Assembly: GCA_911728435.2 (NCBI GenBank)
Contig: OU452200.1
Span: forward strand, 38,765,715 to 38,829,714
Reading direction: 5' to 3'
Source: Apoderus coryli
Taxonomy: Eukaryota; Arthropoda; Insecta; Coleoptera; Attelabidae
DNA: 64,000 bases
This document shows positions 4,030-63,951 of this stretch, one piece after another. A program made the position numbers and the translations under genes. Each line of letters begins with the position of its first letter. Position 1 is the first letter of the stretch. Below the pieces are notes generated by a model. The model had not been told where the DNA came from, did no database searches, and was given only the letters and a program-made list of their open reading frames with translations.

Positions 4030-4700
4030 ATGTTTGATCTTAACTTGAGTACTCCTCAGGGTCCTTAATTTTTCCCTGTACAATAACGATCCTCCGGAAC
4101 ATGTTAATAGTGCTAAAATTTTGTTATATGCCGATGACACCGCGGTTATTGCTGATGTTGATACCCAAATAGTGCGGAGGAGGGTGCTGGAGAGCTTCAG
4201 ACAGATGTTTACTTGGTGTGCTGCAATCATATCAATGATTAACTCGATGAAGACTCAAGTAATTGAATTTCATGGCCGGTACAGGGACTTCTCTGGCTTT
4301 TATTGGACTTTGATGGTCACAATTTCCCCCTTAATGATCGCGTCAACTTTGTTGGAGTTAGGATAGATCAGCCCCTTAATTTTAAGACTCCTGTCGAGAC
4401 AGTTTGTGCTAAACTCAACAAACAATGTTTTTTTCTTATTATTTCATTAAAAGCTTCCCTTAACCTTCGCGTGATTTGAGTGTTTACTACAGTTCTGTTC
4501 AATTAGTTCTGTTCTACAACTTGGTTATTTGCGGACAGTCTCAAGATATTAATAGGGTTTTCGTTGCCCAGAAAAGTTTTGTCCGATTAATTTTTAACAT
4601 TCCATATCGCCATTCTTGTAGGGAGGTTTTTAAAACCAAAAAACAGTTGCTTCACTATTTATTTATAGAAGTTTATTGTCCATATTTAGAGTTAAAGTAG
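4030..4700 (+). pseudogene. decayed jockey-like LINE 3' half
   Basis: Traces of an RT. A TPQG block lies near 4050, followed by LYADDTAVIADVDTQIV (from about 4118), the catalytic palm motif, and a segment with QVIEFHGRY. After frame changes comes a C-terminal block with SQDINRVFVAQKSFVRLIF and the SCREVFKTKKQLLHYLFIEVY motif (4540-4695). The order matches the 3' half of jockey-type ORF2, as in the better-preserved copy at 25331-27620. Stops and frameshifts separate the pieces. The sequence ends just before an element end at 4716. Confidence 0.7.
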
Positions 4701-12922: not shown

Positions 12923-15017
12923 TATACAGGGTGGTCCAACGAAAAGTTTGCACCTAGCTTTTCTCTTTTTTTTGTAGTCGAATGCGAAAATGCTCGGACA
13001 CGTCGATTTTGCTTTTGAGGGGGACACATTTTAAACATATTTTTCGATCTGCGCCTTTAACCCCCTAGCGGGGGTGAGTAACAACCCTAAAATTTTAAAT
13101 GGAAAGAGGGGTCTAATGACATATCATTTGAAAGGACACAAAATTGTCTTTCTAATGATACCCTATTTGTCGAATTTTACTAAAACAGTTAATACGAAAA
13201 CGACTTTAAAGACATTAAGCCGATAATTTTGGTATTAATGAGAAATACAAATAAGTTTTAATTATTGCGAGTGAAAACACCTGCAATCGTTAGTACATTC
13301 CAATGTTTGTTAGTTTTAACATTGCTTTGTAAAAAAAGTAAACAAGCTGTTAAATTGATTTATTAAAACGTTACATTAACAAATGTTGAAAATGTGACCC
13401 ATTTGATTCCATACAATAATACAGATTTTGTTCAAATCTATTTCTAACATTTTGTAGCATATCAGGTGTTATGTTTCTGCACTCTTCTGTAATGCGTTGG
13501 CGAAGATCTTCTATGGACTCGGGCTTCGTGGCAAAACATTTATTTTTTAAGTGCCCCCAAAGAAAAAAGTCTAAAGGCGATAAATCCGGTGACCTGGCAG
13601 GCCATTCAATTGGGCCCCTCCTTCCAATCCACCGTCCAGGGAACCGGTCATCTAAGAACTGTCTTACAGGAGCCACATAGTGCGGAGGTGCTCCATCTTG
13701 CTGGAAATAAAGCCGATCAGCAGTATGATTTTGGTCATCTTCTATTATTTGTGTTATTAAAGGATCAATTGTGTCTTCAAGCATGTTTAGGTACACTTCA
13801 CCAGTTAAATTTCCAGGAATAAAAAGTGGTCCTATAATATGATTTCCTAATATGCCACACCAGACGTTTATTTTTTGAGGATACTGGGTATGAACCTCAC
13901 GGAATAAATGTGGGTTACTGTCATCCCAGTAACGGCAATTGTGCCTATTTACAGCTCCATTCAAATAAAATGTGCATTCGTCGGAAAAACAAATGTTAAA
14001 TAATAATTGCGGATCTTCAATTAAACGCTGGCTCATTGCTTCACAAAATTGCAGCCTTCTATCAGGATCATCCTCATTTAGTTCCTGTACTAATTTGATT
14101 TTGTACGGATGAAATTTGTACGCTTTTAAAATTCGTATTATGGACGAACGGGAGACACCTGAGGCTTCAGCTAGTTGACGGGTACTTTGACTATGATCCA
14201 TTTCAACATGCCCTAAAACAGCGACTTCCACAGCTTCATTTCTGATCGGTTTCTGCGGCTGGTGTTTTACATTACAGACAGATCCGGTATCTACAAACTT
14301 TTTAACTAACTTGCCAACGTACACATCATTCACATTTTTATCGGGATGTCTCTCATTAAATAAGCGAGCCGTAAGTCTAGCACTACTATTATTTTGAAAA
14401 TAAAGTTTAACAATTTCAACTCGTTCTAGAATGGAATAAATCATTTTGTACGGTAAAAGTAAAATAACTTGAGAAGCAACCAAACTGAATCAATGAAAAG
14501 ACTAAAATAAACGGTGTAAATTCTTTTCCTACACGTATCTGCAGTTTTTATTTCAACAAAAAACGCAAACGATTAGTGAGGAATTTAGTTCTGATAAATA
14601 AGATAGTGTTTTTGAAATCCCGTTTTTCTTCAAAGTAAATAATTTAGAAATGATTGTAGTTGTTTTCAGTCGTAATAATTAAAACTTATTTGTATTTCTC
14701 ATTAATACCAAAATTATCGGCTTAATGTCTTTAAAGTCGTTTTCGTATTAACTGTTTTAGTAAAATTCGACAAATAGGGTATCATTAGAAAGACAATTTT
14801 GTGTCCTTTCAAATGATATGTCATTAGACCCCTCTTTCCATTTAAAATTTTAGGGTTGTTACTCACCCCCGCTAGGGGGTTAAAGGCGCAGATCGAAAAA
14901 TATGTTTAAAATGTGTCCCCCTCAAAAGCAAAATCGACGTGTCCGAGCATTTTCGCATTAGACTACAAAAAAAAGAGAAAAGCTAGGTGCAAACTTTTCG
15001 TTGGACCACCCTGTATA
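12923..15017 (-). mobile_element. complete DD41D Tc1/mariner element with about 340-bp TIRs
   Basis: It starts TATACAGGGTGGTCCAACG (12923) and ends with its reverse complement (15017). The TA duplications are at 12923-12924 and 15016-15017. The inverted repeats run inward almost without mismatch to about 13268 and 14674, and include the CCCCCTAGCGGGGGT segment and a GGGTATCATTAGAAAGAC segment. Together with an uninterrupted transposase this is an autonomous-looking element. Near-identity of the two arms suggests recent insertion or conversion between arms. Confidence 0.93.
13371..14444 (-). CDS. DD41D Tc1/mariner transposase, intact
   Basis: A 357-residue cut-and-paste transposase. It would bind its element's TIRs, excise the element and reinsert it at TA. 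I start at the ATG at 14444; the frame stays open to 14483 but without ATG. Residues 1-50 and about 70-110 form the paired helix-turn-helix DNA-binding region (SRSSIIRILKAYKFHPYKI at its end). The catalytic acids are D155 in CFSDECTF, D250 in FQQDGAPPHY and D292 in RSPDLSPLDFF, with 41 residues between the last two, hence DD41D. This lineage includes the rosa-like elements. Length is normal for the family and no stop or frameshift is seen. No promoter motif is obvious; the long TIRs probably carry it. Confidence 0.92.
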   Translation of the reverse strand: MIYSILERVEIVKLYFQNNSSARLTARLFNERHPDKNVNDVYVGKLVKKFVDTGSVCNVKHQPQKPIRNEAVEVAVLGHVEMDHSQSTRQLAEASGVSRSSIIRILKAYKFHPYKIKLVQELNEDDPDRRLQFCEAMSQRLIEDPQLLFNICFSDECTFYLNGAVNRHNCRYWDDSNPHLFREVHTQYPQKINVWCGILGNHIIGPLFIPGNLTGEVYLNMLEDTIDPLITQIIEDDQNHTADRLYFQQDGAPPHYVAPVRQFLDDRFPGRWIGRRGPIEWPARSPDLSPLDFFLWGHLKNKCFATKPESIEDLRQRITEECRNITPDMLQNVRNRFEQNLYYCMESNGSHFQHLLM

Positions 15018-18890: not shown

Positions 18891-19840
18891 GCCAAATATA
18901 AAAAAAACCCAATACTAAATACAGGGTGTCCAATAATATAAGTTATATCAACGTAAAGTTTAATTCTAAATAACTTGTTTATTTCAAATAGAACACCCGG
19001 TATATGAGGTTAAAATTAGATGCAGAAAGTAATTATCTGTCAAATATTATAATACTTTTCTATGGATAACTCTTGACGTTTTCGTGGAAAATGCACATAT
19101 TCATAATATTAGGTGCATTTTTAATTGAACCTGTTAATTTCATTTTTGATGATGCAAAAATTAAAGTTAAAGTAAAGTTTTCCTATAGAAATTTTTCATA
19201 AAACAGTTTTTTATCTGTGACATTAGATTTAATTCAATTAATGATCATTAAACGCTCAAAGGTTCCCGACGCAAAATCATCCAAAAAAGGGGTCTTCGAG
19301 AGACTGTTAAGGCAGTTTAACGAAAGATACCACCCAAACACAGTGCAAAACTTATGAGGAAAATTGACGAAAGGTCCCCTATTCCGCTAAAAAACCAGAC
19401 AGATACCTTATAATAAAAAGTAATATAATTATTTAACAAAACGCACTTAATTGACTTAAAATTTGATGTTCTTTAGGCAACATTATGGGAATTATGAACA
19501 AAAACCGCGACGTGACGAACAGTTTTTTAAATTACATATTTATAGAACTTACCTGGTAAGTATATAAACCTTTGGACAAAAATAGACTCAATCTTGCTTA
19601 CCTGAAACAAAAAAAAAACATGAAGTTTAAATTGTGTTCCGTCTGACAAATATTTTAAAATTAACGAATTTTTAACTATTTGTTCGAAAACACATTCAGC
19701 TTCTGAAATAAGCGGTTCAAAATGAAATGGTTTACCAAAATCCTTAAAATTATTATTTAGACAAGCGCCCAATAGACTAAGTTGCAGATCTTGAGTGCCA
19801 TCATTTTATCTCAAATAATATTCTAAACTTAACGTTTTTG
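18891..19840. other. unassigned, with TACAGGGTGTCC end
   Basis: No gene. TACAGGGTGTCC near 18921 and a mirrored GAACACCCGGTATAT near 18990 may be the ends of a tiny (about 90-bp) element remnant. Confidence 0.35.
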
Positions 19841-20172
19841 TAAAAGGATGTGTTTGGCGACATCTAGTTTTATTGTTGGTAGTACGCCGAGTGAACACAG
19901 TTCCTATATCGACTGCCTGGGAGGTCTCTGACCCCATAAAGCAACTACCAACACATAGACGCGCCGATACTCCCTTAAGCGGGATCGCATATATTTGGAA
20001 TGGGCTTGTTTGACAAAACAAGACTTAAAATCCGAGAGTTTGTCTGTCAACCACTATACTTTCACCAGACGGCCGTTTCGTCGATCCACGACTCATCAGT
20101 GGTGATCGGTCAGTAGTTGACAGCCAAACTCTCGTAAATAATGTGGTATATACCACAAACGGTACAGAGATG
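19841..20172 (-). repeat. 332-bp hammerhead repeat, copy 1
   Basis: First of two direct copies. Copy 2 begins exactly 332 bp later with the same TAAAAGGATGTGTTTGGCG. Each copy contains a hammerhead ribozyme on the minus strand and the perfect palindrome GTGGTATATACCAC (20143-20156 here), whose TATATA core could be a TATA-like element. The tandem arrangement and unit length match animal retrozymes and the repeats of Penelope-like retroelements. No protein is supported within it. Confidence 0.9.
20033..20134 (-). ncRNA. type I hammerhead ribozyme, copy 1 (intact core)
   Basis: A self-cleaving RNA read on the minus strand. The core CTGATGA (20093-20099) is followed by stem II, GTCG-TGGAT-CGAC, then GAAAC, the self-complementary stem III ACGGCCGT, and the cleavage triplet GTC. 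Cleavage is expected between 20068 and 20067. Stem I is open at both ends (type I): TCACCA pairs with TGGTGA, then an internal loop GACCGA/AAGTAT, CAACTACT with AGTGGTTG, and distal CGAGAGTTTG with CAAACTCTCG. All core nucleotides are present. Stem III is so short that cleavage probably works best as a dimer, with two ACGGCCGT segments pairing, as known for hammerheads of Penelope-like elements and retrozymes. Confidence 0.93.
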
Positions 20173-20504
20173 TAAAAGGATGTGTTTGGCGACATCTAGT
20201 TTTATTGTTGGTAGTACGCCGAGTGAACACAGTTCCTATATCGACTGCCTGGGAGGTCTCTGACCCCATAAAGCAACTACCAACACATAGACGCGCCGAT
20301 ACTCCCTTAAGCGGGATCGCATATATTTGGAATGGGCTTGTTTGACAAAACAAGACTTAAAATCCGAGAGTTTGTCTGTCAACCACTATACTTTCACCAG
20401 ACGGCCGTTTCGTCGATCCACGACTCATAAGTGGTGATCGGTCAGTAGTTGACAGCCAAACTCTCGTAAATAATGTGGTATATACCACAAACGGTACAGA
20501 GATG
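20173..20504 (-). repeat. 332-bp hammerhead repeat, copy 2
   Basis: Direct duplicate of copy 1. Reading the two side by side, the only difference I found is in the ribozyme core (20425-20431). Its end is fused to the inverted third copy near 20507. Confidence 0.9.
20365..20466 (-). ncRNA. type I hammerhead ribozyme, copy 2 (core G mutated)
   Basis: Same stems, loops and GTC cleavage site (expected between 20400 and 20399) as copy 1, but the core reads CTTATGA instead of CTGATGA. The changed base is the conserved G5, whose substitution abolishes or severely reduces hammerhead cleavage. Transcripts through both copies would therefore have one good and one dead ribozyme, unless dimer formation lets one strand compensate. 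Confidence 0.88.
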
Positions 20505-20509
20505 TAAAA

Positions 20510-20779
20510 GTTTGTGGTATATACCACATCATTTACGAGAGTTTGGCTGGCAACTACTGACCGATCACCACTGATGAGTCGTGGATCGACGAAACGGCCG
20601 TCTGGTGAAAGTATAGTGGTTGACAGACAAACTCTCGGATTTTAAGTCTTGTTTTGTCAAACAAGCCCATTCCAAATATATGCGATCCCGCTTAAGGGAG
20701 TATCGGCGCGTCTATGTGTTGGTAGTTGCTTTATGGGGTCAGAGACCTCCCAGGCAGTCGATATAGGAACTGTGTTCAC
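20510..20779 (+). repeat. hammerhead repeat, copy 3, inverted and truncated
   Basis: Reverse-complement copy of the 332-bp unit. It starts at TTTGTGGTATATACCAC next to copy 2 and ends at GTGTTCAC, lacking about the last 50 bp of the unit (the part equivalent to the start of copies 1 and 2). With copy 2 it forms a large palindrome whose centre is near 20507. Head-to-tail plus inverted terminal repeats are typical of Penelope-like elements. Confidence 0.88.
20536..20637 (+). ncRNA. type I hammerhead ribozyme, copy 3 (intact core)
   Basis: Plus-strand ribozyme with CTGATGA at 20571-20577, stem II GTCG-TGGAT-CGAC, GAAAC, ACGGCCGT and GTC. Cleavage is expected between 20602 and 20603. All stem I helices of copy 1 are kept. 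The distal bulge reads GCTGG where copies 1 and 2 have GCTGT. Because it is on the opposite strand to copies 1 and 2, both strands of this cluster encode an apparently active ribozyme. Confidence 0.93.
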
Positions 20780-39994: not shown

Positions 39995-41151
39995 CTACAG
40001 TTGCGAAAAGTACAAATTGGTAAATGTTAAATTGGAAGAAGAGTTTGCTGAAGTTGACGGATTGTTAATTTCCACTGTTGAAGAAATTCCTCGCATGGTG
40101 TTGATTATTTCACCATGGCGTTCTTGGTTAATATTCAAGTAAGGTTTAATTGAATTAGAGCTGCTATATGTCCTGTTATTTTTATTAATTGCTGTTCAGG
40201 AATTTCTTTATTTGCCAAATGGCTAACTGCAGTTGATCTGTTCGAATGATTGGATATCTTTTTACACTTAGTGTCCAAACCAATAGCTTGCGCGGATGAT
40301 TTGGTCCACATATTAATTGTGTTCTTGCCTACCGGTATATTGTCAAACCATGTGTCACTTTCGGATTTCCAGAAACGATTTGGTCTCAAGAATAGGCGAC
40401 TGGAAGTAATATTTTTCCCCCTTTTGGACAATAATTTATGGAATACCCGAACAGGGCATGCACTTTCGTTTGCAATATTTGGAACAAGCCACTCACTATT
40501 TGTACAACTTTTCGATACTCCTTGGCATGTTTTACTGAATATTGGATTGTATTCAATTCTGTTGGTTGGCGTTCCATCATTATTTTTCTCAATCGTGAAA
40601 TAATCTATAAGGCAATCAGCTGGTTCACCACCTTACCAAGCTAACTCAACAGCTACAATATGGTAAAAAAAATTTTGTAAACCTTCTGGTGTACATTCAT
40701 CCCATAATCCAATGATTCTAGCCAAATCACTTGACCTCAAATTTGATGAACTGCATTTTCGTTTGTTTGGATCCTACTGTAATCTTTTACGTTTTGCACT
40801 TCTTGCATCTCCCGCATTTTTGAATATCACACTGGAAAACGGGTCGAATACAATTTTGAAGTCATTGAAGTATTTTTCCTGGAGTAGCCTACTCGTAGTA
40901 TTCCAAATTGCTTTTACAGTTGCTTCTTTATATTCAGTTCCGTCAGCTTTTCTCATATTTACCGCATAATCTTTCAATATATTAGCCAAATTATGCAAAC
41001 TCGTTTCAGCATTCAGTTCGTATTCTCTGGTCGCACAAAACTCGAGAAATATTTTCCATACATATTTTTTTGATTTGAGTGTATTTTTTGGTATTATATT
41101 ATTAGATATAATATCATTAATTGCATCTAACGGCAATACCAAATCTTCGCA
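39995..41151 (-). pseudogene. tyrosine recombinase, Crypton-like, two stops and one frameshift
   Basis: One minus-strand frame from about 41151 to 40135, interrupted only by TAG (40776-40774) and TAA (40635-40633). The N-terminal part is a SAM-like core-binding region (KKYVWKIFLEFCATREYELN, NILKDYAVNMRKADG), followed by a basic ARSAKRKRLQ segment. The catalytic half has VELAW-stop-GGEPADCLIDYF, where the stop sits where I expect the box I Arg. Then come YFTIEKNNDGTPTNRI, PVRVFHKLLSKRGKN, the box II core NHSNRSTAVSHLA (H-x-x-R) and ITGH. A frameshift near 40155 gives SSNSIKPYLNINQERH with the candidate Tyr nucleophile, ending at 39995. Such enzymes cut and paste via a 3'-phosphotyrosine; Cryptons encode only this protein and lack TIRs. 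Its 5' start is not visible. Confidence 0.75.
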
Positions 41152-45331: not shown

Positions 45332-46546
45332 TACGAGGGTTGCCTTTTATATTTCGGGATTTGGCAACCCTGGTGTTGCAATCTGGCAACTGACAGCTCT
45401 ATCGTAAAGCTGGACATTTTTGAGGTTATACGTACTCAGAACGTTTTGACATACGCGCACTATTTGTATTGTTTACAGTAACTTAAAAGATCCATCTCGG
45501 CCCAAAAATGGAATTAAATCGTGACCATTTTCATGCGATTATTTTTTACAACTTTCGCATGGATAAACTTAATTCAATTTTTGGCGATGAAGCTCCATCA
45601 ATCACCAGTTTACCATGCTATGGTGTGAAGGTCGTTCAAAATCAGTTGTTGTTCCGAAAACCATTGATGCTGTGCGCGAACTGATAATGCAAGATCGTCA
45701 TGTGACCTATCAAGAGATTGAGACAACCTTAGGCATTAGTGGGACCAGCATACATTCAGTATTGCATAACCATTTGACTGTCAAAAAATTTTGTTTGCGT
45801 TGGATCCCACACGATTTGTCAATCGCTCAAAAAAAGGCTCGTGTCGATTGGTCGAAGGAAATGCTCAAAAAATACGATCGCGGTGCCTCGAAACACGTCT
45901 ATGACATCGTGACAGGTGATGAATCGTGGATTTACGCGTATCAGCCCGAAAGTAAACAGCAGTCGACTGTATGGGTGTTTCAAGATGAGCCAAATCCAAC
46001 AAAAGTTGTTCGCGCACGAAGCACTTCCAAGCAAATGGTCGCCTGTTTTTTCGGAAAAACTGGTCATGTCGCAACCGTACCACTAGAACAACGCAGAACA
46101 GTCAATTCTGAGTGGTACACAACCATTTGTTTGCCAGTTGTCTTCCAAGAAATCAGGAAAACCAACCGCCGAAGACGGATCACTCTTCACCACGACAATG
46201 CGAGTTCTAACACATCGGCTCAAACAACTGCAGTTTTGAGCACCCAAAACATCGATTTGATGAGTTATCCGCCCTATAGTCCTGACTTGGAACCGAATGA
46301 CTTCTTTTTATTCCCGTACGTAAAAAACAAACTGAGAGGTCAACGTTTTTCGACACCTGAAGAAGCGGTTGCTGCATTCAGAATGCATGTTTTGGAGATA
46401 CCTCAATCAGAGTGGCAAAAGTGCTTCGACAATTGGTTCAAACGCATGCAAAAGTGTATAGATCTTCATGGGGAATATTTTGAAAAACAATAAAGTGATT
46501 TTCGATGATTAAAATTTCTTTTTGTTCTCGAAATATAACCCTCGTA
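45332..46546 (+). mobile_element. DD34D mariner element, unit 1
   Basis: TACGAGGGTTGCCTTTTATA at 45332 and the mirrored AAATATAACCCTCGTA ending at 46546 form imperfect TIRs with TA duplications. At about 1.2 kb it is near normal mariner size. It holds one transposase gene whose N-terminal part is damaged. Confidence 0.9.
45508..46493 (+). pseudogene. DD34D mariner transposase, deletion and frameshift in the N-terminal domain
   Basis: Starts MELNRDHFHAIIFYNFRM at 45508 and reads 29 codons to FGDEAPSITSL. There the frame breaks (about 45610) and part of the second helix-turn-helix region is missing. The frame that continues from about 45615 is open for 292 codons: KSVVVPKTIDAVRELI, TYQEIETTLGISGTSIHSV, catalytic Asp in VTGDESWIYAY, second Asp in LHHDNASSNTSAQT and third in YSPDLEPNDFFLF, with 34 residues between the last two (DD34D), then KCIDLHGEYFEKQ. 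The catalytic domain is complete. The DNA-binding domain is not, so independent activity is unlikely. Confidence 0.87.
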
Positions 46547-50080: not shown

Positions 50081-51295
50081 TACGAGGGTTGCCTTTTATA
50101 TTTCGGGATTTGGCAACCCTGGTGTTGCAATCTGGCAACTGACAGCTCTATCGTAAAGCTGGACATTTTTGAGGTTATACGTACTCAGAACGTTTTGACA
50201 TACGCGCACTATTTGTATTGTTTACAGTAACTTAAAAGATCCATCTCGGCCCAAAAATGGAATTAAATCGTGACCATTTTCATGCGATTATTTTTTACAA
50301 CTTTCGCATGGATAAACTTAATTCAATTTTTGGCGATGAAGCTCCATCAATCACCAGTTTACCATGCTATGGTGTGAAGGTCGTTCAAAATCAGTTGTTG
50401 TTCCGAAAACCATTGATGCTGTGCGCGAACTGATAATGCAAGATCGTCATGTGACCTATCAAGAGATTGAGACAACCTTAGGCATTAGTGGGACCAGCAT
50501 ACATTCAGTATTGCATAACCATTTGACTGTCAAAAAATTTTGTTTGCGTTGGATCCCACACGATTTGTCAATCGCTCAAAAAAAGGCTCGTGTCGATTGG
50601 TCGAAGGAAATGCTCAAAAAATACGATCGCGGTGCCTCGAAACACGTCTATGACATCGTGACAGGTGATGAATCGTGGATTTACGCGTATCAGCCCGAAA
50701 GTAAACAGCAGTCGACTGTATGGGTGTTTCAAGATGAGCCAAATCCAACAAAAGTTGTTCGCGCACGAAGCACTTCCAAGCAAATGGTCGCCTGTTTTTT
50801 CGGAAAAACTGGTCATGTCGCAACCGTACCACTAGAACAACGCAGAACAGTCAATTCTGAGTGGTACACAACCATTTGTTTGCCAGTTGTCTTCCAAGAA
50901 ATCAGGAAAACCAACCGCCGAAGACGGATCACTCTTCACCACGACAATGCGAGTTCTAACACATCGGCTCAAACAACTGCAGTTTTGAGCACCCAAAACA
51001 TCGATTTGATGAGTTATCCGCCCTATAGTCCTGACTTGGAACCGAATGACTTCTTTTTATTCCCGTACGTAAAAAACAAACTGAGAGGTCAACGTTTTTC
51101 GACACCTGAAGAAGCGGTTGCTGCATTCAGAATGCATGTTTTGGAGATACCTCAATCAGAGTGGCAAAAGTGCTTCGACAATTGGTTCAAACGCATGCAA
51201 AAGTGTATAGATCTTCATGGGGAATATTTTGAAAAACAATAAAGTGATTTTCGATGATTAAAATTTCTTTTTGTTCTCGAAATATAACCCTCGTA
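50081..51295 (+). mobile_element. DD34D mariner element, unit 2
   Basis: Identical copy of 45332-46546, with the same TIR ends and TA flanks. Confidence 0.88.
50257..51242 (+). pseudogene. DD34D mariner transposase, unit 2
   Basis: Same gene and same frame break as 45508-46493. The shared lesion shows it was damaged before the block was duplicated. Confidence 0.86.
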
Positions 51296-61438: not shown

Positions 61439-63951
61439 TTAACCCTTAAATGCATGATTTTTTGAAAATTACTAAAAAAAATCCTGAATGATTGTTTTGA
61501 TGTATTTATTCAGAGAAAAATAAGGAAAAAATTTAATAACAAAGTTAAAGGCTATTTTTAGCTAAAAGCTAGTTGTTGCATATCTGCAACATTATGCATT
61601 AACCAGATAACTTATGATGTGGTATGATAGTCTTTAAAACAGTTATTTTTTTTGTTGCAACATAAATACACGCCACATTTCTCACATATGGTTTGTGCAT
61701 ACCCTTTGCAGTTTGGTAATTTACAGCGACCACGTACATCTGTCCAGATCATCCAATGTCCTACTTGATCAAGGCGAACGTCCTTTGGAGGAGCATGTTG
61801 GGCAGGACCTGATTTTTTCTTAGCCCTTATTGTTTCTTCAAGAGTGCTATTGCTTGGACGTCCTCGTTTGATTGCATTGTGTTGTCCAATTTGTATTAGA
61901 CATAGTGCTACCTGTTTTCGGAATTCAAAAAGTGTAATATGTTGTTGACCACTTTGATGCATTGTAGATATTTTTTTAAATAAAATCCACGAATTTGCTA
62001 ATGCCATATCGATGAAATGATAAAACAAGCGCATATACCATTTTTTGCTTTTGTTCAATATTTTATGCCTTGCCATAAAAGCATCTAGCAAGTCCACTCC
62101 ACCCATGTGATGGTTGTATTCTTTTACAACAAAAGGACAAGTAATTTCAGCAGTAGATTTGCTTGTTTTATTGTATCTGTTTATGGTACTTAATGGTAAT
62201 TTTCCCGCAAAGGTTGACAGAAGAGTTACAATCTTGTTATCCTTCCAAACAACAGATGAAATATCTATGCCATCAAGATCTCCTACAAACTCATAACAAG
62301 TGCCTCGAGGATCCTTCTTCATATCTTTTTCAGATGGTAATTTGCAATTTGTGATTCTATTACGCCGGATAGTTCCCAAGCTGTATATTCCATTCTTTGC
62401 TAAGTATACCATCAAAGCCGGACTGGTGTAATAGTTGTCAAAATACAACCTGTAGTTTTGATTTCTCGGTATTCTTCGGGATAATCTAACCACTACGTTA
62501 GCAGCAGCTCCTAGGTCTGGTTCACTTGCATCTATTATTTGCCTCTTATCGTTTTCTTGGCCCGAATAGACTTCGAAGTGGTAAGCGTACCCACTTACAC
62601 CACAAAGCACAAATAGTTTGAAACCCCATTTGTGAGGTTTCATTGGCAAATATTGCTTCATGTAGTGATGTACCTTTGTAGAACACAGCTGTTCATCAAC
62701 TGAAAGTTTAGCTTCAAGGGGCACTGTCGAATTTTTTGCATTCAAGTGAGTTATTATCGGTCTTATTTTATGAAGTCTGTCGTGATCTGCATGATCCCTA
62801 GGTAAATGTTTGTTGTTGTCATTAAAGTGTAAAAACTGGCGAATTTTCTCGAATCTATTTAAGGTCATAGAATTTGCGACTACATCGGTACCAATATCTG
62901 GTGACCAATAATGACGAGTATTCGGCAGTCGTACGAGAGACATGTAAATGATAATACCAATGTATCGTCTTAGCTCTCTGGCTGACAAATTTAATGGTTT
63001 GTTTATGTCAAACTGTTGAGCATATAAGTTTGATTCTTGAACAATTTTTTCTACTAAATCATCTGAAAAGAAATGTTGGAAACATTCATATGGAGTTTCC
63101 ATTTTAAGCAGCTTACTGGGCATAATGTCATTTCCTTTAAAACTTAATTGAACCTCATTCAAAAGTAAATTCTTCTTCTTCCATTTTATTTCAATTTTTG
63201 CAGTTTTTGATTTTGAGCTACAGGGTAACACATTATTTGCTGACTTATTATGGTTAATCACTGTTTCAACCCGTTCCTCGGTGTTATCTAAAATCTCATC
63301 AGGCACCTCTAAATCTTCTAATTCACCTTGCTCTTGTTCCTCCAAGACATTATCGGGAAAATACTCTGGATCGTCCAAAGAATCTACGTCTGAGAAGTTT
63401 ATATCTTCACTAATTTCACTTAAATTGTCAATAAAATACTGTAATTCATCATTGGTAAGTGCCTTACTTCGATCGCCCTTCGACATGCTAAAAACAAAAA
63501 AGGAAAAAACACGGTCAACCAAACACATAAAAAGTTCTAAAATTAATGAGTCGCAATGCATGATGTTGCATTTCTGCAACATATTTTTTTTCCCGAAAAA
63601 TTCAACATCACACATAATATAACAACAAATACTATAAAATGTTTATAATACTAACCTTGGACAATACGAAACACAATTTTATAAAACTCAAAATACGCTT
63701 TTTGTTGGAATTCTAATTCTCAGAAAGGTTCACTAACAAAAGTAGGGTTAGCACATATGACTATCTCCACGATGCCGGCTTGAATCATTTACATTTTTTT
63801 AAATTTTTCGCGCGCAGTCTTTGCCTTCATATCTAACACACTGTTGCACTTCTGCAACATTACGGATAGACCGAGAAATTAATTTAACTTGCATTTTACG
63901 TACTAAAATGATTTTGTTGCATTTCTGCAACCGCATGCATTTAAGGGTTAA
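61439..63951 (-). mobile_element. complete piggyBac element, 2,505 bp with TTAA duplications
   Basis: TTAA (61439-61442) precedes CCCTTAAATGCATG; the mirrored CATGCATTTAAGGG is followed by TTAA (63948-63951). The 14-bp TIR is exact and the TTAA duplication is the piggyBac hallmark. Subterminal copies of TTGCA-NNNN-TGCAA (for example TGTTGCATTTCTGCAACA) occur at about 61575 on the left and 63563, 63843 and 63916 on the right. They are likely transposase-binding sites. The uninterrupted transposase on the minus strand makes this copy potentially autonomous. Confidence 0.94.
61612..63486 (-). CDS. piggyBac transposase, intact
   Basis: A 624-residue DDD transposase that would excise the element precisely and insert it into TTAA. 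I start at the ATG at 63486 (MSKGDRSKALTNDELQYF); the open frame extends to 63615, but upstream residues look non-conserved. Residues 1-75 are acidic. The catalytic Asp residues are D264 (LSVDEQLC), D350 (RLYFDNYYTSP) and D465 (MGGVDLLDAF). The C-terminal cysteine-rich domain (about 585-621) keeps the expected Cys/His ligands: C588, C593, C601, C604, C609, C610, C616, H621. No stop or frameshift is seen and length is normal for the family (about 550-650). A close domesticated relative is unlikely, because the complete TIRs are present. Confidence 0.93.
   Translation of the reverse strand: MSKGDRSKALTNDELQYFIDNLSEISEDINFSDVDSLDDPEYFPDNVLEEQEQGELEDLEVPDEILDNTEERVETVINHNKSANNVLPCSSKSKTAKIEIKWKKKNLLLNEVQLSFKGNDIMPSKLLKMETPYECFQHFFSDDLVEKIVQESNLYAQQFDINKPLNLSARELRRYIGIIIYMSLVRLPNTRHYWSPDIGTDVVANSMTLNRFEKIRQFLHFNDNNKHLPRDHADHDRLHKIRPIITHLNAKNSTVPLEAKLSVDEQLCSTKVHHYMKQYLPMKPHKWGFKLFVLCGVSGYAYHFEVYSGQENDKRQIIDASEPDLGAAANVVVRLSRRIPRNQNYRLYFDNYYTSPALMVYLAKNGIYSLGTIRRNRITNCKLPSEKDMKKDPRGTCYEFVGDLDGIDISSVVWKDNKIVTLLSTFAGKLPLSTINRYNKTSKSTAEITCPFVVKEYNHHMGGVDLLDAFMARHKILNKSKKWYMRLFYHFIDMALANSWILFKKISTMHQSGQQHITLFEFRKQVALCLIQIGQHNAIKRGRPSNSTLEETIRAKKKSGPAQHAPPKDVRLDQVGHWMIWTDVRGRCKLPNCKGYAQTICEKCGVYLCCNKKNNCFKDYHTTS

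Follow-up and report, generated by a model that had tools for sequence, protein, structure and literature searches.

In the genome of the beetle Apoderus coryli, hammerhead ribozyme repeats of about 332 bp lie in head-to-head arrays whose outer ends mostly fall at two fixed positions of the unit, one at each end, and which are mostly flanked as a whole by direct repeats. We propose that these arrays probably arise by two-ended target-primed rolling-circle reverse transcription of a circular retrozyme RNA and that a cluster of three copies in the 64-kb window (the whole stretch of DNA analyzed) represents a decayed or aberrant animal non-LTR retrozyme of this kind.

Layout of the cluster in the window

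The cluster consists of a 332-bp unit present twice in direct tandem (spacing, 332), followed by an inverted partial copy of 270 nt that is 99% complementary, an order of copies that the original prediction had also described. Unit positions are numbered from the first base after the hammerhead cleavage site. According to comparisons among the repeats and mapping against related loci, unit 1 (positions 19839 to 20170) and unit 2 (20171 to 20502), both of 332 bp, have their RNA sense on the minus strand, and unit 2 continues into a 7-nt stub of a third lap (20503 to 20509, minus strand), the direct units and this stub together spanning 19839 to 20509. End mapping places the head-to-head partial copy 3 at 20510 to 20779 on the plus strand, with unit positions 240 to 332 followed by 1 to 177, and the inner junction of the two putative cDNA arms lies at 20509/20510. 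The layout had been predicted correctly, with the start of the repeat now moved two or three bases leftward, to 19838/19839. The left edge of unit 1 (19839, minus strand) is at unit position 229, a predicted cDNA start at the site designated A below, whereas the right end of the cluster, at unit position 177, is not at the second such site, B. No clear target-site duplication was found around the window copy, the best flanking direct repeat being 5 bp with 6 nt of slack per edge. We read the window copy as a retrozyme family member that has either decayed or arisen aberrantly.

Over the unit, copies 1 and 2 are identical except for one position (C at 20097 versus A at 20429), and the 270 positions of copy 3 include 2 that depart from copy 1. 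The GC content of the cluster is 45.2%, compared to 32.2 and 34.1% in the 2-kb flanks. The stop-to-stop frames in the cluster all fall short of 100 aa, the longest (94 aa) spanning the inverted junction, and the retrozyme unit is noncoding. Copies 2 and 3 form an inverted repeat of 270 bp (20223 to 20779) with arms 17 nt apart; a transcript across this region would form long double-stranded RNA, which could feed small-RNA silencing.

Other mobile elements were also identified in the window. A direct duplication with a spacing of 4749 extends from 42476 to about 52000 and contains two identical 300-aa mariner-type transposase frames (45591 to 46493 and 50340 to 51242) as well as internal inverted repeats of 450 nt and 238 nt. 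An uninterrupted frame of 676 aa (61612 to 63642, minus strand) has a DDE_Tnp_1_7 (piggyBac) domain; its closest relative among the database matches listed is 79% identical, and the relatives with named hosts are mostly from insects, with one from a spider (best 120 of 477). The minus strand also has an uninterrupted 372-aa transposase-like frame with a DUF4817 helix-turn-helix domain (13371 to 14489) and a fragment with DUF3504 and a weak phage integrase match (40135 to 40632), which we take to be possibly Crypton-like.

The hammerhead ribozyme

A full type I hammerhead layout had been predicted for each of the three copies. The Rfam covariance model RF00163 matched copies 1 and 3, with 33.8 bits each (E value of 3.4e-6 in a 1801-base search), and both have an intact core: the hammerhead of copy 1 occupies 20062 to 20105 on the minus strand, with predicted cleavage at 20068/20067, and that of copy 3 occupies 20565 to 20608 on the plus strand, with predicted cleavage at 20602/20603. 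The gathering score of the model is 34, 0.2 bits above these scores, which is why a scan of the whole window at the gathering cutoff listed none. The pattern CTGATGAG-N11-CGAAAC had two matches in the window and was found in 0 of 100 dinucleotide shuffles, and a chance hammerhead was rejected on this basis.

The layout did not hold for copy 2 (20394 to 20437, minus strand), which is predicted from sequence comparison to be inactive. Its mutated core reads CTTATGAG (20407 to 20431, one mismatch), with an A on the plus strand at 20429 that gives CUUAUGA; to our knowledge, the core G altered here is invariant among active hammerheads. Since this core is mutated and copies 1 and 2 are the sole pair in the same orientation, at most one cut is predicted per minus-strand transcript, for monomer and dimer action alike. 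The release of a 332-nt RNA, which the original prediction had expected from such a transcript, was therefore rejected as improbable for the window locus itself.

In copy 1, the hammerhead and its extended stem I together comprise 102 nt (20033 to 20134, minus strand). Stem I reaches about 35 positions per side, internal loops included, and helix III consists of one C-G pair adjoining the core A-U and capped by the palindrome GGCC. In energy calculations, the 44-nt hammerhead fold (-7.8 kcal/mol) was less stable than a rival fold (-16.5 kcal/mol). For two copies, the energies were -88.4 kcal/mol for two single hammerheads, -105.8 kcal/mol for two rival monomer folds, -107.3 kcal/mol for an explicit double hammerhead, and -113.3 kcal/mol for the best dimer fold, and this lowest-energy dimer fold differs from the double hammerhead. 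In a dimeric hammerhead, each active site combines the core from one copy with the GUC of its partner, and the modeled ribozyme probably acts in this way. The axolotl hammerhead HHR_Amex1, which has such a helix III, is described as cutting weakly as a monomer and better as a dimer (PMC7229834), and the energies calculated here are in line with this.

A retrozyme family in the genome

The genome searched has 129 contigs totaling 428 Mb. It contains 2206 exact occurrences of the 25-nt hammerhead core, compared to 0 for a reversed-pattern control, and the 939-bp cluster used as a query gave at least 386 genome matches (39 of 1238 candidates scored); clearly, the repeats are not confined to the three copies in the window. 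The exact 25-mer had 0 matches in viral contigs. With a type I hammerhead, a repeat of ~330 bp, a GC content below 50%, and many genomic copies, the window cluster is a retrozyme-type locus.

The core was intact in 198 of the 201 testable units (loci L009 to L046 and the window). It is, however, not significantly less variable than the rest of the unit, as random sets of 14 columns reached its value in 3768 of 10,000 cases, so the intact cores mostly reflect young copies, and a stronger constraint on the ribozyme core is not supported. The predicted circular fold of the unit has an energy of -112.6 kcal/mol (z score of -6.0 against 200 shuffles), with 66% of the bases paired (shuffle mean, 61%; maximum, 70%); the figure given in PMC4918200 is above 70%. 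On the 152-kb contig C101, several retrozyme arrays (L023, L024, and L025) have a common left flank and are probably the result of local amplification of one insertion.

A second family, with a 336-nt unit, was identified in L053 and also in L050, and it matches family 1 at 70% over 416 aligned bases (L053). It has kept the hammerhead, and the distal part of stem I is largely replaced yet still pairs. Compensatory changes in stem I were evaluated with four sequences: (i) 7 of 36 pairs were changed on both sides; (ii) 91.4% of the cells paired, compared to 29.5 to 45.3% with the partners slid; and (iii) in 500 shuffles, the count of 7 pairs was reached 29 times, the number of pair types 335 times, and the covariation score 0 times. 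Loci L047 and L048 are alike in the part compared and match family 1 at 87%.

Arm order and outer ends

We mapped 38 loci (L009 to L046), which are the best matches to the window cluster, together with the window copy, and seven further loci (L047 to L053) from contig C1. As the query holds the head-to-head junction, the array type is biased in L009 to L046, whereas the end position is not. Only the contig C1 list and L047 to L053 are free of array-type bias: on C1, the first 100 listed core places were taken in order, without choice by array type, giving 69 clusters, the last seven of which are L047 to L053. Segments shorter than 51 bases were excluded from the end tables.

All of the two-armed arrays (32/32) were head-to-head, antisense then sense. 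Likewise, for the first 100 places listed on C1, opposite-strand neighbors within 1500 bp were in the order minus-then-plus in 15 of 15 cases and plus-then-minus in 0. The outer ends fell at site A (unit positions 224 to 237, ~230) and site B (64 to 82, ~76). One outer end was at A and the other at B in 25 of the 32 two-armed rows, with 0 A/A and 0 B/B rows; six of the remaining rows, including the window copy, had one canonical end, and one had neither. Random ends would yield A/B in 0.48% of the cases, and with an independent choice of A or B at each end, 25 mixed arrays out of 25 would have a probability of 3e-8. The one-armed rows also began at A or B (11/11), 5 of them (L023 and L024) sharing a flank and probably representing one duplicated insertion.

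Some rows call for comment. The second array of L022, which is cut at the end of the extracted stretch, was scored as noncanonical with neither end standard, its left end being at 230 in the BLAST map and at 193 after refinement. L027 was also scored as noncanonical, even though its left flank holds a site A start and, after it, an internal jump. Both flanks are common to L013 and L034 (97 and 99% over 200 bp), which brings the canonical arrays down from 25 to ~24 independent insertions; the arm lengths and inner junctions of these two loci differ, which suggests that the center of the palindrome was rearranged after duplication.

The loci at the end of the C1 list showed the following: (i) L049, L051, and L052 had A and B ends and direct repeats of 12 to 13 bp; (ii) L050, the sole two-armed locus seen for family 2, had B/A ends and an 11-bp direct repeat that appeared only at 10 nt of slack, half of it inside the element, and is less secure; (iii) L047 and L048 had a site B end and another end without a clear assignment; and (iv) L053, of family 2, was one-armed, with a site A end and a best flanking repeat of 5 bp. 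The L053 array (1742 to 2646 of that locus) has its inner end close to unit position 1, where the hammerhead cuts, which in this one case gives the impression that a cleaved linear RNA was copied up to its end.

A palindrome might also form by self-priming, in which the first cDNA would fold back and serve as its own template, as has been proposed for the inverted repeats of Penelope (PMC3846280). A complete fold-back would, however, give A/A or B/B arrays, seen in 0 of the 32 two-armed rows, and the arms also differ in length. We rejected self-priming, which has almost no likelihood here, because the A/B rule argues against identical outer starts.

Direct repeats, arm lengths, and arm similarity

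An exact direct repeat of 10 to 17 bp was found at the outer edges of 24 of the 25 canonical arrays. Among 992 mismatched flank pairs, 5 had repeats of at least 10 bp; the repeat lengths include microhomology with the element, with 6 nt of slack per edge and the same rule in the control. The direct repeats flank whole arrays, indicating that a head-to-head array inserts as one unit. In the seven noncanonical rows, the repeats were 0 to 7 bp long; arrays without a canonical end are thus also without a repeat, as would be expected from a later deletion or an aberrant event. The flanking DNA had an AT content of 77%, compared to 68% in the distal flanks.

Ordinary satellite DNA, amplified by unequal crossing-over and inverted by chance, could account for the tandem pair and inverted copy in the window and for the C101 arrays (L023 to L025) with their shared flank. 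Against this reading, whole arrays are flanked by direct repeats, the end positions are fixed, and tail-to-tail inversions numbered 0; the long arrays devoid of insertion hallmarks that define a satellite were not what we found among the mapped loci. Satellite amplification was rejected because the arrays are short, have fixed ends, and are bordered by direct repeats, and we regard it as extremely improbable.

Arms started at A and B were equally long (means of 3.27 and 3.01 laps; Wilcoxon P value of 0.85). More than one lap was present in 58 of 76 arms, the longest having 12.3 laps, and the inner junction was variable, with an overlap of -7 to 7 nt (mean, 1.7).

In six diagnostic, partly linked columns, the two arms of a locus agreed 142 times and disagreed 4 times (expected disagreements, 60.2), and the arms were fully concordant in these columns in 24 of 27 loci. 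The between-arm divergence was near the within-arm divergence in most loci and below the between-loci median of 1.81%; it was clearly raised in L014, L022, L027, L032, and L039 and somewhat raised in L028. The divergence table leaves out unit pieces shorter than 100 nt and hence gives 0 differences for the window arms, which differ at 2 of 270 positions when compared directly. The shared alleles could also come from identical source copies or from later homogenization. With L014, L022, L027, L028, L032, and L039 as exceptions, we infer that both arms of a locus were copied from the same template.

A model for insertion

Both outer edges of an array correspond to 5' ends of antisense cDNA, which suggests priming from both DNA ends. 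Multi-lap arms require a template that was circular or an uncut multimer, and one A together with one B per insertion suggests that the two starts were coordinated. In the predicted circle, the start windows A and B are unusually single-stranded, their mean being reached by 0 of 331 rotations in family 1 and by 4 of 335 in family 2; a test for a shared loop holding A and B was weak for family 1 (51 of 331 rotations), with 18 of 335 rotations in family 2. The primed ends, the multi-lap arms, the coordinated starts in single-stranded stretches, and the AT-rich flanks together favor the two-ended rolling-circle reading.

According to this model, intact copies would be transcribed, cut by the type I hammerhead, and circularized, as the properties of the family suggest. 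Reverse transcription of the ~332-nt circular RNA would then begin on both sides of a staggered break in the target, with the exposed 3' DNA ends as primers. One of them would start a rolling-circle cDNA at A (~230) and its counterpart would do so at B (~76), so that each DNA end uses exactly one site. The two antisense cDNAs, of 0.3 to 12 laps, would then be joined at a variable point to give a head-to-head array that has a target-site duplication of 10 to 17 bp around it as a whole. Of the elements of this model, the geometry and fixed ends of the arrays, the duplications, the similarity of the arms, and the hammerhead come from the sequence itself, and the circular form of the template, the joining of the arms, and the enzyme are inferred.

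In the same two-ended copying, the template could instead have been a linear multimer that was transcribed from a preexisting array and left uncut. The arms cross the hammerhead site without a scar, as a linear multimer would also give, and the inner end of L053 coincides, in that single case, with the 5' end of a cleaved linear RNA. However, a linear multimer would transmit the unit-to-unit differences of its source, whereas the units within several arms were identical (for example, 0 differences at 4265 compared positions in L033 and 0 at 1348 in L011), which fits a single circle; in addition, with the core intact in nearly all testable units, long transcripts should be cut. We consider the linear template improbable and a circular one the better candidate.

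In a more specific version of the circular model, which we put forward tentatively, a reverse transcriptase dimer would load A and B, the two single-stranded stretches of one circle, onto the two ends of a staggered break. Both ends would then prime at once and both enzymes would roll around the same circle, which would act as a clamp pairing the two DNA ends, making this an obligate two-start, two-ended rolling-circle retrotransposition.

The mobilizing enzyme

The insertion geometry resembles, by analogy, that of Penelope-like elements: two-armed arrays were head-to-head throughout (32/32), and 24 of the 25 canonical arrays had duplications of at least 10 bp. Head-to-head inverted pLTRs with 8- to 10-bp duplications and an optional tail at one end are described for rotifer Penelope (PMC3846280). 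PMC11167929 reports two internal start sites, both DNA strands being cut and extended. According to this source, initiation within an RNA that lacks homology to the cut DNA, both strands being extended, occurs in a Penelope-like element and is unseen in other retrotransposons. Because of these starts and the inverted pLTRs, Penelope-like machinery is the favored candidate for the mobilizing enzyme, with a LINE as a possible one.

The original prediction of a retrozyme-like or Penelope-derived locus is upheld in its first part by the hammerhead, the ~330-bp repeat, and the genomic copies; for the second part, the geometry speaks in favor, and the form of stem I and the motif scans speak against. 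Motif patterns for the Penelope-type reverse transcriptase had no match in the 64-kb window or in the 281,809 bases of 53 loci, some of them overlapping, and the unit encodes no reverse transcriptase with a GIY-YIG endonuclease. The minimal hammerhead of Penelope, without helix III or loop-loop contacts, is defined in PMC7761336; the hammerhead here has a short helix III and departs from that form by its long stem I.

The type I hammerhead and the head-to-head arrangement would also suit a solo pLTR cluster of a Penelope-like element. The long stem I with its internal loops, unlike the minimal Penelope hammerhead (PMC7761336), the arms of up to 12 units in direct succession, and the lack of matches to the Penelope-type motif patterns in the 53 loci make this very unlikely.

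Alternatively, a LINE could mobilize the repeats in trans, both strands being started by twin priming. LINE-1 twin priming gives head-to-head inversions and long duplications, and the reverse transcriptases found by motif in the window are of the GVPQGS type. The 15-bp duplications of Nematostella repeats were likened by the authors of PMC4918200 to those of LINEs. Moreover, for the Penelope-like element studied in vitro, PMC11167929 reports the same start for the top and bottom strands, at odds with the A/B rule of one start per end seen here. Against the LINE, there is no fixed RNA 3' end in these arrays, both starts being internal and fixed, and the internal starts with two-strand extension are of the Penelope-like kind. 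A LINE is thus a rather unlikely mobilizer, and we retain the Penelope-like element as the favored one.

Comparison with known systems

In LINE-1 twin priming, as in our model, two DNA ends prime on one RNA and produce a head-to-head inversion. It differs in having a variable second start and a linear, poly(A)-ended template, whereas the arrays here have fixed starts and multi-lap arms. Penelope-like elements share the geometry discussed above and differ in encoding a reverse transcriptase and a GIY-YIG endonuclease, whereas the retrozyme here encodes no protein. The Penelope starts are, moreover, described as adjacent (30- to 40-nt tail), whereas those found here are ~154 nt apart along the circle.

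Metazoan non-LTR retrozymes are described by Cervera and de la Pena (2020; PMC7229834) as type I hammerheads in tandem repeats of ~170 to 400 nt with a low GC content, with duplications, when present, that exceed the 4 bp of plant retrozymes, and insects are among the named hosts. Retrozyme repeats of 150 to 450 bp with a GC content below 50% (according to the text; the figure legend has below 45%) compare with 332 bp and 45.2% here. A hammerhead is present in copies 1 and 3 and in 198 of 201 sampled units, copy 2 being mutated, and the family is dispersed (2206 cores) with duplications of 10 to 17 bp in 24 of 25 canonical arrays, the window copy having a best repeat of 5 bp. The retrozymes of the axolotl (HHR_Amex1) and the newt satellite likewise have a one-base-pair helix III with a palindromic tetraloop (here C-G and GGCC) and a unit of ~330 bp, and such one-base-pair palindromic ribozymes are reported to perform best as dimers (PMC7229834). 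The retrozymes described here differ from them in the host and the long extended stem I, and their action as dimers is a prediction.

Animal retrozymes, including those of insects, are already known; the head-to-head anatomy with two fixed starts, one per end, and direct repeats around the whole array is the new part. The main text of PMC7229834 makes no mention of inverted or head-to-head arrays or of their orientation, and among the openly available main texts searched, none was found to describe retrozyme arrays that are head-to-head and start at two fixed sites. The enzyme and insertion route of animal retrozymes are left there as a hypothesis, with LINE or Penelope elements as candidates and Penelope elements as a strong one (PMC7229834). 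The paired fixed starts and whole-array repeats provide a concrete insertion model that predicts the start positions on the RNA, and a single mechanism would explain both the tandem copies, as rolling-circle laps, and the inverted copies, as the product of priming at the other DNA end. Should this hold more widely, head-to-head arrays whose ends lie at two fixed positions could serve as a signature for retrozyme insertions and their mobilizers in other genomes.
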